Shown: one piece after another, positions 1,941-17,397 of the stretch | Position numbering within the stretch: position 1 is the first letter of the stretch | How the letters are laid out: the number at the start of each line of letters is the position of its first letter | IMG/VR virus record: IMGVR_UViG_3300047171_000142 | Span: 1 to 20,171 of that record | Strand: one strand, 5' to 3' | Source: a virus | DNA: 20,171 bases | Notes under the pieces: model-generated | What the model was told of the DNA's origin: nothing | What the model saw: only the letters and a program-made list of their open reading frames with translations | Databases searched by the model: none | Program-made: the position numbers and the translations under genes

Positions 1941-2393
1941 ATGTCCCTCGCCGAAGCCAGCACTGTCGAACGCTTCGCCCACGAGCTTGCCGGCCCGGGG
2001 TTCGGCGATGCGCGCGATGATATGGCCGCGCGGTCGAGGCGCATGGGCGAGGTTGTGGACGAGGTGTTGGTGCGGATGGGGCCAAAGCCGGGTCAGAGCG
2101 AGTCGGAGAGAGCGCGCAATTTGGCCTTGGTGGAGGGCCTCGCGGCGCTGATGACCTCCGGTCTCGATGTCCTGCGCGACAATCTCGACGCCATGGACCC
2201 CGAAGGCGAGACGTTCGATCTCGCGGTGGCGGCCTATGACGACACGGTGCGCGAATATGAGCGGCTGAAGATCCTGGCTATCGCGCTTGATCCTCTGGCG
2301 AACGCTGGTCCTGATGCCCCTGTTCTCGACAGCGCGGCCGCCATCGATGCGTGGTCGGAGCGGCTGTTTACGGGTCTTGACGCCCGAGGTTAA
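1941..2393 (+). CDS. Hypothetical helical acidic protein, candidate antitoxin
   Basis: I do not recognise the family of this 150-residue protein. It is acidic, looks helical throughout, and has no membrane segment or recognisable DNA-binding motif. The C-terminal half carries 'YDDTVREYERLKILAIALDP'. The ATG at 1941 is preceded closely by GAGG. Its stop overlaps the start region of the RelE-like toxin downstream by about 17 bases, the tight coupling typical of type II toxin-antitoxin pairs. From that context it is the best candidate for the antitoxin, but nothing in its own sequence proves it. It could equally be an unrelated accessory gene. It sits between portal and scaffold, where P22-like phages normally have no gene of this kind. 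Confidence 0.6.
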   Translation: MSLAEASTVERFAHELAGPGFGDARDDMAARSRRMGEVVDEVLVRMGPKPGQSESERARNLALVEGLAALMTSGLDVLRDNLDAMDPEGETFDLAVAAYDDTVREYERLKILAIALDPLANAGPDAPVLDSAAAIDAWSERLFTGLDARG

Positions 2394-2652
2394 AGCGAGC
2401 CGGAGGTTTGAGCGCGCCTTCGCCAAATGGGGCGCGGGCGCTTCCGTGCGACGCGAGCAGGCCATTCGGGCGATAAAGCAATTCGTCGCGGATCCGGACC
2501 ATCCGAGTTTGAATTTCGAGCGGCTGGCCGGCTCCGACCTTTTTTCCATCCGCGTCAATCGTGGCGACCGCATCATTCTGAGACGGCTCGACGGGGATTC
2601 ATTTGAACTCGTCGATCTGGGATCGCACGACATCTATCGCAGGTATCCTTGA
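2377..2652 (+). CDS. RelE/ParE-superfamily toxin
   Basis: This is a 91-residue protein of the RelE type, a family of small toxins many of which cut mRNA on the ribosome. Supporting motifs are 'FERAFAKWG' near the N terminus, 'HPSLNFERLAGSDLFSIRVN' in the middle (the core strand with SIRVN), then 'DRIILRR' and 'FELVDLGSHDIYRRYP' at the end, where RelE proteins keep catalytic basic and aromatic residues. I chose the TTG at 2377, which gives the usual family N terminus. An in-frame ATG at 2347 would add ten residues. It overlaps the upstream 150-residue gene, its likely antitoxin. A REP-like repeat begins about nine bases after its stop. The superfamily is clear. The mode of action (mRNA cleavage or gyrase poisoning) is not settled by sequence. 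Confidence 0.75.
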   Translation: MTPEVKASRRFERAFAKWGAGASVRREQAIRAIKQFVADPDHPSLNFERLAGSDLFSIRVNRGDRIILRRLDGDSFELVDLGSHDIYRRYP

Positions 2653-2660
2653 GCATCCGA

Positions 2661-2722
2661 AATCGCGCCCAGTCACCTGGGTCCCGCATCTTCGCTGCGC
2701 TTCGTGCGGGATGACGGGGAGG
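2661..2722 (-). repeat. REP-like palindromic unit, family 1, left of GIY-YIG gene
   Basis: Read on the minus strand this runs CCCGTCATCCCGCA, a loop containing GAAGCGCAGCGAAG, TGCGGGACCCAGG, then ACTGGGCGCGATT. It holds two stems: TCCCGCA pairing with TGCGGGA, and CCCAG pairing with CTGGG. It overlaps the 3' end of the GIY-YIG gene and supplies its last codons and stop. It is an inverted counterpart of the unit at 3091-3146. Confidence 0.8.
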
Positions 2723-3074
2723 GGTGTCTGCGGGATGAGGGAGTTTGCGGGCGTTGGAGGTGGCTGAGGGGGCCTTCGGGGACGGCGTTGATTGAGTCCC
2801 AGAGGTCGAGCCACTGGGGGTTGGCGGCTTCGATGAGGGCGATTTTCCAGGCGCGGCGCCAGCGTTTGATGACCTTCTCGCGGGTGATCGCGGCTTCGAT
2901 GTCGCCGTGGTCTTCGAACCAGACCAGATGTTTGACGCCATAACGGGTGGCGAAACCGGGGGTGAGCCCCAGGCGGTGTTCAGAGACGCGTCGTAAGAGG
3001 TCGCTCGTCACGCCGGTATAGAGCGTTCCGTTGCGCCGGCTGGCGAGGATGTAAACGCAACCACCCTTTTCCAT
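2673..3074 (-). CDS. GIY-YIG nuclease domain protein
   Basis: A single-domain GIY-YIG endonuclease of the small UvrC-N/YhbQ-like type, found in many copies in some alphaproteobacterial genomes. The N terminus has 'CVYILASRRNGTLYTGVTSD' (VYI...YTG replaces GIY...YIG). The conserved Arg is in 'DLLRRVSEHR' and the metal-binding Glu is in 'AITREKVIKRW'. The domain ends with 'ANPQWLDLW' near residue 91. The remaining roughly 40 residues are low-complexity, rich in Pro, Ser and Arg, and the last 17 or so are encoded by a REP-like repeat. I chose the ATG at 3074; a GTG one codon upstream is possible. It runs opposite to all surrounding genes and is bracketed by inverted repeat units. The natural substrate of this family is not established. 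Confidence 0.88.
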   Translation of the reverse strand: MEKGGCVYILASRRNGTLYTGVTSDLLRRVSEHRLGLTPGFATRYGVKHLVWFEDHGDIEAAITREKVIKRWRRAWKIALIEAANPQWLDLWDSINAVPEGPLSHLQRPQTPSSRRHPSPSSRTKRSEDAGPR

Positions 3075-3090
3075 CACGCCCTAACCTTAA

Positions 3091-3146
3091 CCGTCATCCC
3101 GCGCGCAGCGAAGCGGAGACGCGGGACCCAGGGGACTGGGTGCGAT
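3091..3146 (+). repeat. REP-like palindromic unit, family 1, right of GIY-YIG gene
   Basis: CCGTCATCCCGCG starts at 3091, followed by a loop with GCAGCGAAGCGGAGA, CGCGGGACCCAGGGG, and ACTGGGTGCGATG. It has the same two-stem design as the unit at 2661-2722 but opposite orientation. It begins 16 bases upstream of the GIY-YIG start codon, so the nuclease gene fills the whole interval between the two units. Confidence 0.8.
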
Positions 3147-3224
3147 GATTGCAAGTCGACCCCGCCGCCGGGGGTAACGGGCGTTACGGGCCGCCACCGT
3201 GTGGGCGAAATAGGAAACACCAAC

Positions 3225-3908
3225 ATGGATAAGGACGATTTGGCCTCCCTCATTGAGGGGGAGCCTGAAGGCGTGGCCGAAGAGGAAACTCCGGTCACGG
3301 AGCAGCCGGCGGCGGAGCGACAAGAGGCGGGCGAGACGCCCACCCTCCAAGTGACGCCGCCACCCACCCAACCAGAACCTGGTCACGTTCCCGTGGCCGC
3401 GCTTTTGGATGAGCGGGATAAGCGCAAGGCTCTGGAGAAGCGCCTGGCCGATATTGAGGCCGAGCGGAAAATCGAGGGTCCGGCGCCGGAGCCGACCACC
3501 GCCCAGCAGATGTGGGCGCTGCGGATGGATGTCTCGCGGGAGCTGATGGTCAGTCAGCACGGCGAGGAAGAAGCCAAGGCGCTACATGAGTGGGGGGAGG
3601 CGAGGTGCGGGTCTGATCCGCACTTCAATGCTCAGGTCTATGCCTCGAAGAATCCGTACGCGTTCATTCGTCAGGCCCGCCAACGCGAGCAATTGCTCGC
3701 CGAGGTGAGCCCGGACGAGTTGGATGACTACAAGGCGTGGCGGGCCTCCCGTTCGGCGCCGAAAGAGGCGGGCGGGACGCCCACCCTCCAACCGACGCCG
3801 ACCCCGCCCAGATCCCTGGCCAACGCCCCGAACGCCGGCGGGGCCGGAGCCCAGGCGGAAACGCCGCTGGGGCCCGGCGCGGCTTTTGCTCAGACGATCC
3901 GACGTTAG
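3225..3908 (+). CDS. Putative capsid scaffolding protein
   Basis: Position between portal and major capsid protein, a hydrophilic acidic composition, and central coiled-coil helices ('ALLDERDKRKALEKRLADIE' around residue 80) point to the scaffold that guides procapsid assembly and then leaves. From the ATG at 3225, with AGGAAA seven bases upstream, the product is 227 residues; an upstream GTG frame to 3201 has no better site. The helix-rich middle runs from about 70 to 185, flanked by Pro/Thr/Ala-rich linkers. Two linkers contain the same peptide, EAG(E/G)TPTLQ, near residues 34 and 181, encoded by two almost identical 27-base copies of a dispersed repeat. The C terminus is basic (TIRR), and scaffolds usually bind coat protein through a basic tail. 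The role is inferred mainly from position and composition. Confidence 0.72.
   Translation: MDKDDLASLIEGEPEGVAEEETPVTEQPAAERQEAGETPTLQVTPPPTQPEPGHVPVAALLDERDKRKALEKRLADIEAERKIEGPAPEPTTAQQMWALRMDVSRELMVSQHGEEEAKALHEWGEARCGSDPHFNAQVYASKNPYAFIRQARQREQLLAEVSPDELDDYKAWRASRSAPKEAGGTPTLQPTPTPPRSLANAPNAGGAGAQAETPLGPGAAFAQTIRR
3324..3350 (+). repeat. Repeat half-unit, family 3, inside scaffold gene
   Basis: GAGGCGGGCGAGACGCCC followed by ACCCTCCAA. It differs by one base from 3765-3791 and closely resembles the right arm of the inverted repeat at 9219-9245. It is read in frame as EAGETPTLQ. Confidence 0.6.
3765..3791 (+). repeat. Repeat half-unit, family 3, second copy inside scaffold gene
   Basis: GAGGCGGGCGGGACGCCC followed by ACCCTCCAA, in the same orientation and reading frame as 3324-3350, read as EAGGTPTLQ. 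One base separates the two copies over 27. Confidence 0.6.
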
Positions 3909-3961: not shown

Positions 3962-5101
3962 ATGGCCGAGACCATTCTTTCCACCGCGCTTGAGCGTCAG
4001 GTGTGGATCACCAAGTACTTCCAGGAATATGTCCGCACCTCGCGGTTCATGCCCTATATGTCCAACGCCGACATCAATAAGGGCGGCATCATCCTCACCA
4101 AGTTCCAGCGGGAGGATGAGGCGTTTCGCACCATCAATATCCCCTTCATCGCGCGCCTCAAGGCCGCCGGCGTCACCGGCGCCACGGTGCTGGACGGGGC
4201 GGAAGAGGAGCTCGTCAACTATAACTGCCCGATCACCATCGACTGGCGTCGGAACGGTGTTCGTCTGCCGAAATCCACCACCTTCCGCACCGAGATCAAT
4301 CTGTGGGACGCCGCTAGAGACGCCCTGATGGTCTGGGAATCGGAGAAGCTGCGCGACGACATCATCAAGGCGCTGGCCATGGTGGTGGTGGACGCCAATG
4401 GCACGATCGCCTTCTATGATCAGGCCACGGCGGCGCAGCAGAATGCGTGGAACGCGGCCAATTCCGACCGGGTGCTGTTCGGCTCCAACATCTCCGACTA
4501 TTCGGCGACCTTCGCCACGGCCATGGCCAATGTGACCCCCAGCATGACCGCCAGCGCGGCCATGGTCTCCAAGGCCAAGCGCATCGCCAAGCAGGCGGAC
4601 CCGCATATCCGGCCCTATCGGGTCGAGGACGGGGACGGGCGGGAATATTATGTGCTGTTCAGCGGCTCGCGCACCTTCCGTGATCTGAAGCTGGATACGA
4701 ACATCATCAACGCCAATTCCAACGCCCGGGCCCGCGAGGGGATGGGCATGGAGAAAAACCCGATCTTCCAGGACGGGGACCTGCTCTGGGATGGGGTGAT
4801 CATCCGGGAAATCCCGGAGATCGACACCTATTGCGGCAATATCTCCAACCCGAATGGCGGCACGGCCTTCAACGGCGTGGGCGGATCATCCGGCGACATC
4901 CGCCCGATGTTCCTCTGCGGCGGCGGGGCCGTGGGCGTCGCCTGGGGCCAGGAGCCGACGCCCCGTACCGACATGATCAAGGACTATGGCTTCCGCCCCG
5001 GCGTCGCCATGGAGGAGCTGCTGGGCGTCAAGAAGATCAACTTCAACGGCGTCCAGAACGGCATGGTCACGATCTTCGCCGCGGCCTCGGCTGACGCTTA
5101 A
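3962..5101 (+). CDS. Major capsid protein, N4-gp56/DUF4043-like
   Basis: A 379-residue shell-forming capsid protein with an expected HK97 fold. The N-terminal arm has 'ERQVWITKYFQEYVRTSRFM'. The signature 'VLDGAEEELVNYNCPITIDW' followed by 'RRNGVRLPK' (around residues 78-107) is the pattern of the N4-gp56/DUF4043 capsid family. A long spine-helix region follows ('INLWDAARDALMVWESEKLR'). The later part has 'HIRPYRVEDGDGREYYVLF' and 'GVAWGQEPTPRTDMIKDYGF', also typical. The ATG at 3962 follows AAGGAGCC. It comes directly after the scaffold and before a small possible decoration protein. The role is secure. Assignment to the N4-gp56 group rather than P22 gp5 is by motif recall. Confidence 0.88.
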   Translation: MAETILSTALERQVWITKYFQEYVRTSRFMPYMSNADINKGGIILTKFQREDEAFRTINIPFIARLKAAGVTGATVLDGAEEELVNYNCPITIDWRRNGVRLPKSTTFRTEINLWDAARDALMVWESEKLRDDIIKALAMVVVDANGTIAFYDQATAAQQNAWNAANSDRVLFGSNISDYSATFATAMANVTPSMTASAAMVSKAKRIAKQADPHIRPYRVEDGDGREYYVLFSGSRTFRDLKLDTNIINANSNARAREGMGMEKNPIFQDGDLLWDGVIIREIPEIDTYCGNISNPNGGTAFNGVGGSSGDIRPMFLCGGGAVGVAWGQEPTPRTDMIKDYGFRPGVAMEELLGVKKINFNGVQNGMVTIFAAASADA

Positions 5102-5110
5102 GGTTTTTTG

Positions 5111-5264
5111 ATCCACAGATTTACACAGATGAACACAGATGGGCCCGGGGCGCGGCTCGGCCTCGCGAACCTAGCGCCGCAGGCAATAATGGCCTTCGGC
5201 CGATTAGCCCGAGAGACCGCCGCACCCCGCACTCATCTGTGAACATCTGTGTCAATCTGTGGAC
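5111..5264. repeat. Large composite palindrome, CACAGAT type (family 2)
   Basis: The left arm (5111-5141) carries three CACAGAT blocks. The right arm (5234-5264) carries three ATCTGTG blocks and is the reverse complement of the left at 27 of 31 positions. The interior contains a core, 5170-5210, with GCGCCGCAGGCAAT and the small hairpin GGCCTTCGGCC. The same core occurs in the element at 16654-16806. It fills the gap between capsid and decoration genes and could also act as a transcription terminator or attenuator. Confidence 0.85.
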
Positions 5265-5310
5265 AAACATTCCTTCCCCCATCCCTCACATCTGAAAGGA
5301 GCGGATCGCC

Positions 5311-5792: not shown

Positions 5793-6038
5793 GTGACCGT
5801 CGAGGATATCCGTCGCGTCGGCCAGCATTGGTTACAGGCGGTCACCACGGCGCTCGCCCTGGTGGCCGTCGCCCTGCTGGGCTGGACCGGATCGCAGCTC
5901 ATCGCCATGCGCGATGACATCCACAGCCTGAAGGACGCCCTGCCGAGCCTTCAGGCGCGGGTGGACCGCCTGGAGAGCCGCCAGGACAAGGTGATCGAGG
6001 TTCTTTACGATCAGATCGACCAGGATAAGCGCCCATGA
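5793..6038 (+). CDS. Small membrane coiled-coil protein of lysis region
   Basis: An 81-residue protein with one strongly hydrophobic segment ('ALALVAVALLGWTGSQLIAM', about residues 20-40) followed by a short coiled coil ('LKDALPSLQARVDRLESRQD') to the C terminus. It starts at GTG 5793, twelve bases after the preceding stop. Its stop overlaps the endolysin start (ATGA at 6035-6038), so the two are translationally coupled. A bitopic protein with a coiled-coil tail next to an endolysin could be an accessory holin, an antiholin or an inner-membrane spanin. No outer-membrane spanin partner is visible, so the spanin option is weaker. Confidence 0.7.
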   Translation: MTVEDIRRVGQHWLQAVTTALALVAVALLGWTGSQLIAMRDDIHSLKDALPSLQARVDRLESRQDKVIEVLYDQIDQDKRP

Positions 6039-6631
6039 CCACGCCCCTGCTTATCGCGGATCTGAAGCGGGACGAGGGCCTGCGGCTGGAGGCTTACCGG
6101 GACACGCGCGGCGTCTGGACCATCGGTTATGGCCACACCCCGGCGATGGAGGGCGCGGTCTGGACGCCGGAGGCCGCGGCGATCCAGCTGGCCGCCGATC
6201 TCGACCGGGTGCTGGCCGGGCTCGACCGGGAGATCGCCTGGTGGCGGGGCCTCGATGATGTCCGCCAGGATGCCCTGGCCAATATGGCGTTCAATCTGGG
6301 CGTCGGCGGGCTTCTGGAGTTCCGGCACATGCTGGAGGCCCTGGAGGCCGGTGATTGGCACACCGCCAGCGCCGCCATGCTGGTGAGCCACTGGGCCGCC
6401 GAGGTTGAAGACCGCGCCGAGCGCCTCGCCTTCATGATCCGCACGGGGACGCGGGCGTCCACGGCGCCCCACCTTTCCCCGTCATCCCGGCCAAGCGAAG
6501 CGCGAGCCGGGACCCAGGGGACCGGACCGCGCCTCGCAACGGCGAACCCAAACGCATCGCCCAGTCCTCTGGGTCCCGGATCCGCGCTGCGCTCCGTCCG
6601 GGATGACGATTTTGAAGATCAGGGATCAACA
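6035..6631 (+). CDS. GH24 endolysin (T4-lysozyme family), 3' end repeat-derived
   Basis: A muramidase that cleaves the glycan strands of peptidoglycan at lysis. The GH24 triad is intact in 'LKRDEGLRLEAYRDTRGVWT' followed by IGYGHT: Glu14, Asp23 and Thr29, with the 9- and 6-residue spacing of T4 lysozyme. The helical lobe has 'ALANMAFNLGVGGLLEF', and the domain ends at 'AERLAFMIRTGT' near residue 147. There is no signal peptide, so it should need a holin. No stop follows the domain. The frame runs through a REP-like inverted pair (6480-6609) and continues into the holin, giving a 338-residue frame that ends at 7051. I split the entry at the holin ATG. The true product may be lysozyme with a repeat-encoded tail fused to the holin. 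Confidence 0.85.
6480..6609. repeat. REP-like inverted pair, family 1, within endolysin-holin frame
   Basis: A forward unit starts with CGTCATCCCGG at 6480 and carries CGGGACCCAGGGGACCGG. An inverted unit ends with CCGGGATGACG at 6599-6609 and carries ATCGCCCAGTCCTCTGGG. The two units lie tail to tail around a spacer of about 30 bases. The whole piece lacks a stop codon in the endolysin frame and encodes a linker rich in Pro, Ser and Arg. Confidence 0.85.
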
Positions 6632-7051
6632 ATGACAGATACGCACACCCCCACCCCCATCCAGACCGCGACCCTCGACATGGCCCGCTCGGCGCTCATG
6701 GCGGCGGGAGCGATTCCCTTGGCCCATGGCCTGGCCACGGCGAGCCAGTGGCAGGCCATCGTGGGCGGGGTGATCGCCATCGGCTCGGCGGTGTGGTCCT
6801 ATCTCGCCGCCCATCCCTCGCGGACGAGCGCGCTGACGAGCCTCCTCGGCATGATCCGCAAAGGCGGTCAGGGCCCGGCCTGGAACGGCGATGTCACCGC
6901 CCTTGAGGCCGCCGTTCTGCCCCTCGTGGAAAAGGCCGTGGACGCCCGGATCAAGGCCCGCGCGGGCGTCCTCGCCGGGCCCGTCGATCTCGCCGCCAAC
7001 GCCGTGATCAAGGACGCGGCGGGCCAGGTGGTCAGCCACCTTCGTATTTAA
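6632..7051 (+). CDS. Pam3-gp28-like putative phage holin
   Basis: The 139-residue product starting at ATG 6632 has an N-terminal region like the Pam3-gp28 holin family. A first hydrophobic helix ('MARSALMAAGAIPLAHGLA', about residues 13-31) and a turn ('TASQWQ') precede a second helix ('AIVGGVIAIGSAVWSYLAAH', about 38-57). The C-terminal 80 residues are an extra helical, alanine-rich domain ('LPLVEKAVDARIKARAG'). Holins open the inner membrane so endolysin reaches the wall. The ATG has only a weak ribosome site (CAGGGA), and the frame is open into the upstream endolysin, so the holin may be made as a separate protein or as a fusion domain. Confidence 0.72.
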   Translation: MTDTHTPTPIQTATLDMARSALMAAGAIPLAHGLATASQWQAIVGGVIAIGSAVWSYLAAHPSRTSALTSLLGMIRKGGQGPAWNGDVTALEAAVLPLVEKAVDARIKARAGVLAGPVDLAANAVIKDAAGQVVSHLRI

Positions 7052-7074
7052 CACTTAACCCGCCCCCACCCCAC

Positions 7075-7117
7075 CCGTCTTCCCGGAAAGGCGCGCAGCG
7101 AAGATGCGGGATGACGG
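7075..7117. repeat. Short REP-like hairpin, family 1
   Basis: CCGTCTTCCCG (7075-7085) pairs with CGGGATGACGG (7107-7117) at 10 of 11 positions around a loop with GCGCAGCGAAGAT. It consists only of the head of family 1, without the CCCAG...CTGGG second stem, and lies between the holin and the next gene. Confidence 0.75.
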
Positions 7118-16634: not shown

Positions 16635-16653
16635 GGTGAGCGGCAAGGTTTTC

Positions 16654-16806
16654 TCCGCAGATTACGCAGATTGCGCAGATTTGGGGGGTAGAAGCGCCGC
16701 TGCTTCACGAGCCTAAAGCGCCGCAGGCAATTAATGGCCTTCGGCCGGATAGCCTCCGGCGCCGGAGCTTCCACAAACCATCTGCGAAATCTGCGTAATC
16801 TGCGGA
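16654..16806. repeat. Large composite palindrome, CGCAGAT type (family 2)
   Basis: The left arm (16654-16682) has three CGCAGAT blocks. The right arm (16778-16806) has three ATCTGCG blocks and is complementary at 26 of 29 positions. The interior (16712-16755) repeats the core seen at 5170-5210: GCGCCGCAGGCAAT, then GGCCTTCGGCC. Compared with the element at 5111-5264, the arms changed CACAGAT to CGCAGAT and ATCTGTG to ATCTGCG together. Confidence 0.85.
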
Positions 16807-16843
16807 CAAAAATCACCTTTCCGCGCCGACACGGAGGACGATT

Positions 16844-17267: not shown

Positions 17268-17397
17268 CCCCGTCATCCCGCACGAAGCGCAGCGAAGATG
17301 CGGGACTCAGGGGATCAGTTGCGATGCGTGGGTTCGTGAACCGCGGAATCGCATCCAGTCCCCTGGGTCGGTTCGCTTCGCGCCCCGGGATGACGGG
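17268..17397. repeat. REP-like inverted pair, family 1, upstream of fibre gene
   Basis: A forward unit starts CCCCGTCATCCCG (17268-17280) and has GAAGCGCAGCGAAGATGCGG and a CAGGGGATCAG tail. An inverted unit ends CGGGATGACGGG (17386-17397) and has GAATCGCATCCAGTCCCC. Tails face each other, as at 6480-6609. The pair fills the gap between the two fibre genes. Confidence 0.85.

Follow-up and report, generated by a model that had tools for sequence, protein, structure and literature searches.

REPtrons are units in which the gene of a DNA-processing enzyme, the RAYT, is framed by REPs that are also dispersed as dimers; the RAYT is an HUH tyrosine transposase and its repeats carry the tag GTAG. 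A GIY-YIG nuclease of Neisseria, Ssn, reportedly (in a Nat Commun study said to date from 2025) cuts a repeated sequence in single-stranded DNA only, and together with its repeats it is said to modulate natural transformation. A further class of repeats, the CGTC REPs, is characterized by a CGTC tag, a stem starting with AT and a CCA tail; these units occur mostly as head-to-head dimers, mainly in alphaproteobacteria, and the dRS3 element of Neisseria corresponds to CGTC-1 (Di Nocera et al., 2013; PMC3733652). No dedicated transposase was reported for CGTC REPs in that 2013 survey, which checked transposases only (PMC3733652). At the phage locus described here, the partner of CGTC-tagged units is a GIY-YIG nuclease gene.

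The window, that is, the whole stretch of DNA analysed, is an IMG/VR virus record of 20,171 bases, in which a P22-like portal, a Phage_capsid_3 capsid and a phage lysozyme are encoded according to Pfam. The gene order portal, cargo, homologue of ORF 3201-3908, capsid, structural gene, lysozyme and holin is common to its sister phages. The slot 3' of the portal gene receives cargo, which is swapped among these phages; of the calls made for genes in this slot, the ParE-like one was checked with Pfam. The nuclease cassette lies between this ParE-like small gene, which extends to 2652, and ORF 3201-3908. The first-pass annotation had placed a GIY-YIG gene exactly between two inverted REP-like units, and this layout is borne out, with inverted arms of 56 nt that are 88% complementary, heads that both read CGTCATCCCG, and outer ends that match as had been described (ATCGC.CCCAGTC against GACTGGGTGCGAT). 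The distance of 16 nt given for the right unit holds for an ATG start at 3074, and becomes 13 nt for the GTG at 3077.

Each unit has the layout CCGTCATCCCGC..loop..GCGGGACCCAGG..GACTGGGYGCGAT, in which an unpaired CGTC tag, a stem starting from AT and a CCA tail are all found. While CGTC REPs typically have a stem of 8-9 bp and a loop of 4-5 nt, the loops in the window are about 20 nt long; we regard the unit as a long-loop variant, since deviant loops are recorded in some species (PMC3733652). The heads-outward dimers elsewhere in the window and the alphaproteobacterial distribution are further points of likeness, and by its sequence features the unit is a CGTC-tagged REP of the dRS3 superfamily.

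Features of the window and of the equivalent cargo slot in sister phages
Feature	Sequence	Position	Strand	Remarks
ParE-like toxin and partner	window	1941-2652		cargo slot after portal; ParE-like call by Pfam
Cassette, unit-nuclease-unit	window	2661-3147	.	sister-phage flanks diverge at both ends (alignment of L099, L100, L102, L103)
Left CGTC-type REP unit	window	2662-2717	-	head at 2717, toward nuclease gene; inverted repeat
GIY-YIG nuclease ORF, 134 aa	window	2673-3077	-	ATG 3074, GTG 3077; core domain 2790-3074
Right CGTC-type REP unit	window	3091-3146	+	head at 3091, toward gene; DNA fold -15.2 kcal/mol
Second palindromic repeat family, CCACAGATTTACACAGATG type	window	5100-5275; 16649-16811		CCACAGATTTACACAGATGAACACAGATG; CCGCAGATTACGCAGATTGCGCAGAT
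Lysozyme-holin ORF	window	6035-7051		domains fused via translated REP dimer (6480-6608)
REP dimer, heads outward	window	6480-6608	.	between lysozyme and holin domains of fused ORF; one long hairpin, -49.7 kcal/mol
Degenerate REP dimer CCGTCTTCCCGG..CGGGATGACGG, heads outward	window	7074-7116	.	3' of holin
REP dimer, heads outward	window	17271-17396	.	folds as one long hairpin, -37.5 kcal/mol
Fic/Doc-like genes	L100; L111	2648-3043; 852-1909		same portal-side cargo slot; putative
HicB/HicA-like genes	L110	3635-4084		same portal-side cargo slot; putative

The product of the framed gene matches PF01541 (E=2.5e-13, 50.6 bits) and possesses all of the catalytic-type residues Y9, Y20, R30, H34, E67 and N86, and with them the catalytic Tyr, Arg, Glu and Asn of the GIY-YIG superfamily; R30, H34, E67 and N86 are invariant in 42 relatives, and the active site is predicted to be intact. 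The AF2 model of the protein has a pLDDT of 94, and a fold search with this model returned UPF0213, Slx1 and the UvrC N-domain as the best solved structures, with E-values that are all weak. The UPF0213 proteins (1zg2, 1ywl) are also the nearest solved structures in a sequence-profile comparison (E 9e-9), with 1zg2 first by fold, although they share only about 25% identity with the window nuclease and are themselves uncharacterised. Neither NCBIfam nor PHROGs contains a model that matches the nuclease, and no relative was found among 50,697 cultured-phage records. The protein ends in a tail of 24 residues past the stop of its relatives, translated from the spacer and the repeat, so that in the window the left unit does provide the last codons and the stop (TGA), as the first-pass annotation had it. 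This read-through is not conserved, because the genes of the four nearest relatives (L002-L005) stop 4-31 nt ahead of the repeat head and the window has lost that stop, with a CAA codon at the site of the TAA in L003. A conserved fusion of the 3' end of the nuclease gene to the repeat was rejected, as it is seen in the window only.

The likeness to RAYT genes among REP palindromes that had been pointed out extends to the arrangement and stops at the enzyme: the window nuclease has a GIY-YIG domain and a repeat tagged CGTC, and a Pfam search found no HUH/Y1 match in it, which sets the cassette outside the RAYT/REPtron group. A homing endonuclease, which would be expected in an intron or intein of an otherwise intact target gene, was likewise rejected, as the gene is intergenic, with cargo on its portal side and a further phage ORF on the other.

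Relatives were gathered by protein similarity alone, yielding 17 viral loci and 80 genome loci, the latter from Alpha-, Beta- and Gammaproteobacteria, Planctomycetota, Elusimicrobia, Cyanobacteria and others. A stem-validated unit was present within 200 bp on both sides at 81% of these 97 loci, compared to 0.4% of 1,897 shifted intervals; with a limit of 150 bp, 59 of 80 nuclease genes were framed on both sides as against 2 of 278 other ORFs (Fisher p 7e-47). The comparison with random genes had been proposed as the means of refuting the linkage, and the linkage held; chance or a high repeat density as the source of the framing is rejected by both the ORF-matched and the shifted-interval controls. 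Our initial definition of a unit required a GTCAY..C head. In a deeper sample, 64% of 50 seemingly unframed genes had flanks that matched each other in inverted orientation over 12 nt or more, perfectly and for up to 35 nt in some, and other tags were found at such genes (CCGCTCATCCCCGCGAAAGCGGGGACCCAG, CGTCATCCTCGGGCTTGACCCGAGGATC and more), as well as hairpins of CGCTC or CGTCATCCTC type. The framing fractions are lower bounds, because seemingly unframed genes often carry these other tags. The linkage of nuclease and repeat is general and extends across many bacterial phyla, and this pairing of one nuclease family with matching hairpins argues that the nuclease very probably recognises the repeat. 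In more distant GIY-YIG clades (L186-L309, for example L262, L268 and L304) the hairpin tag CGCTC replaces CGTC, which suggests that these may be further type-matched pairs.

The inward-facing heads noted at the outset are present in the window and are the minority state among framed relatives: the units were heads-out in 70, heads-in in 33 and direct in 20 of 123. Orientation was discarded as a clade marker, as it clustered only in part (18 changes for heads-in, 29 when shuffled).

Paralogous nuclease genes within a single Pseudoxanthomonas genome are flanked by different repeats (GTCATTCCCGC, GTCATCCCGGC and GTCATTCCAGC), each being of the type found with the same clade in other genomes. Over 96 framed genes, protein identity correlated with repeat identity (r 0.404); when repeats were shuffled within genomes only, r was 0.313 +/- 0.018 and the observed value was reached in 0 of 2000 permutations. 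The flanking repeat therefore goes with the enzyme rather than with the genome. Nuclease and repeat also co-occurred across genomes: at least two remote type-A repeats were present in 9 of 15 Pseudoxanthomonas genomes with a clade-A nuclease and in 1 of 23 without (p 0.00025), and the nuclease was present in 12 of the 13 Caulobacteraceae genomes (from 149) that have window-type REPs and in 70 of the 136 others (p 0.006), both p-values being calculated without regard to phylogeny. In some REP-bearing Caulobacteraceae genomes, such as G090 and G094, none of the copies examined was a clearly framed nuclease. These data bear on the notion that REPs are terminators or recombination junctions that gather passively round any small cargo gene, the nuclease included. 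REPs do favour intergenic sites (PMC3733652), and other cargo is swapped at the slot of the nuclease; however, the near-absence of framing at neighbouring ORFs (the 2 of 278 above) and the tracking of nuclease clade by repeat type within genomes make such hitchhiking highly improbable.

The closest described counterpart comes from Neisseria gonorrhoeae, where a homologue that is identical to the window nuclease at 53 of 89 residues (60%) has dRS3 units (ATTCCC-N8-GGGAAT) on either side. Its record, L341 (NZ_CP119142.1; also NZ_CP119140.1), is listed in PLSDB as a 2.17-Mb N. gonorrhoeae "plasmid", a size that is chromosome-like. We take this homologue, as a lead, to be Ssn, a site-specific single-stranded nuclease of the GIY-YIG superfamily. 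The homology, the framing and the within-genome co-variation with a cognate repeat make membership of the Ssn family a lead for the window nuclease as well. Both are small single-domain GIY-YIG proteins, and repeats of the same class frame the Neisseria gene; in contrast, the window nuclease is phage-borne, its activity is predicted, its units face the gene, and its repeat has a CCCGC stem and an extra hairpin tail, CCAGG..CTGGG. The reported effect of Ssn on natural transformation, together with the dRS3 framing of the homologue, lends some weight to a regulatory or barrier function, whereby the enzyme would act on repeat-bearing single-stranded DNA and so control uptake, recombination or competing phages, with the repeats at its gene as targets or as a self-limiting switch. 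The phage slot that holds the nuclease also accepts toxin-antitoxin-like cargo, which fits this proposal. However, no tie of the nuclease to competence or defence genes was found here, and many of the hosts are not known to be competent; we regard such a function as possible, while leaning against it.

Comparison with sister phages bears on mobility. The cassette is present in the window and in L099, L100, L102 and L103. On its left, the sequence switches at the outer boundary of the left unit, with L102 having the left flank of the window, and in L100 a switch in the right-hand sequence coincides with the outer boundary of the right unit. A truncated, inverted remnant of the nuclease gene occupies the same slot in L113. 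L101, whose portal and capsid are 98% similar, has neither the nuclease gene nor the repeats. Occupation of the intergenic slots that follow the capsid, lysozyme and holin by a REP dimer varies from one sister phage to another, and this presence or absence in the same slots is seen among phages with capsids up to 98% similar: the dimer at 6480-6608 is found in L099, L102 and L104 and is missing from L101, while the slot of the degenerate dimer is empty in L100, L101 and L102. Four phages (L114, L117, L118 and L120) have REPs and no intact nuclease in the stretch seen. These differences show exchange or insertion bounded by the repeats.

The first-pass annotation had raised movement of the unit as a package and had called for a search for empty sites in sister prophages. 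Co-varying types and boundaries at the outer repeat ends are as movement or exchange of the unit as a package would predict; the comparison of sister phages revealed neither a clean empty site nor a target-site duplication. L101 was rejected as a clean empty site, its intergenic sequence being too different for a junction or duplication to be read. Of the features of an insertion sequence, the cassette has the inverted ends, and no duplication was seen, there being no clean empty site for comparison. Recombination between phages would look like transposition here, and could yield the slot polymorphism.

The same observations could be read as the work of a true transposon, in which the GIY-YIG protein itself excises and reinserts REPs in the manner of a RAYT and the dimers are non-autonomous derivatives of the cassette. 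The REPtron-like layout, the inverted dimers scattered over intergenic slots and the coincidence of the cassette ends with repeats are all compatible with this, but the lack of an HUH/Y1 match and of a visible target duplication speaks against it, and GIY-YIG enzymes are nucleases that act by hydrolysis, with strand transfer not known among them; we think this account unlikely. We instead consider it probable that the cassette is a phage-borne selfish element, a single-domain GIY-YIG endonuclease bounded by its own recognition element, the CGTC REP, which would cut the hairpin units and leave repair to spread the copies. In this mechanism the enzyme would recognise the hairpin-forming unit, most likely while the DNA is single-stranded during replication, entry or transfer, and would cut at the unit or next to it. 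Through repair or recombination at the break, REP dimers, and in some cases the entire cassette, could then be copied or exchanged, with phage, prophage or host copies of the REP as partners. The REP-bearing Caulobacteraceae genomes and sister phages in which no framed or intact nuclease was seen count against this account, as does the failure to find a target-site duplication or a clean empty site. From the recurrent pairing with matching repeats, recognition of the unit is strongly inferred; its direct binding, the preference for single strands or hairpins, the site of cleavage and the spread of dimers and cassette by cut and repair are more conjectural parts of the model.

The window also contains a second palindromic repeat family, and in the capsid slot of sister phages this palindrome alternates with or adjoins the CGTC dimer. 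In Caulobacteraceae genomes (L311-L340), inverted repeats in the style of this second family, of the types CACAAAGG, CACAGATG and CGCCAAGG, lie on both sides of the genes for GxxExxY proteins (TIGR04256); the flanks shared an inverted match of 12 nt or longer at 70% of 27 genes, compared with 3.2% of shifted controls. The GxxExxY proteins are unrelated to the GIY-YIG nucleases and are a second family whose genes lie within a frame of their own repeat. Judged by title and abstract, neither of two papers that mention GxxExxY deals with repeats.

It is tempting to propose, tentatively, that CGTC REPs are dispersed by cut and repair through cognate GIY-YIG nucleases, with no transposase and with phages as carriers, that GxxExxY proteins act likewise with their own repeat, and that selfish elements in which a nuclease gene lies between copies of its own dispersed repeat form a general class with more than one evolutionary origin. 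CGTC REPs, dRS3 in Neisseria among them, are widespread bacterial repeats that were reported in 2013 with no dedicated transposase (PMC3733652), and one nuclease subfamily is now a candidate partner for them across phyla. Type-matching inside genomes makes this partnership directly testable, and the phage context offers a possible route of REP spread. The type-matched pairs would amount to a catalogue in which each nuclease is listed with its predicted target hairpin.
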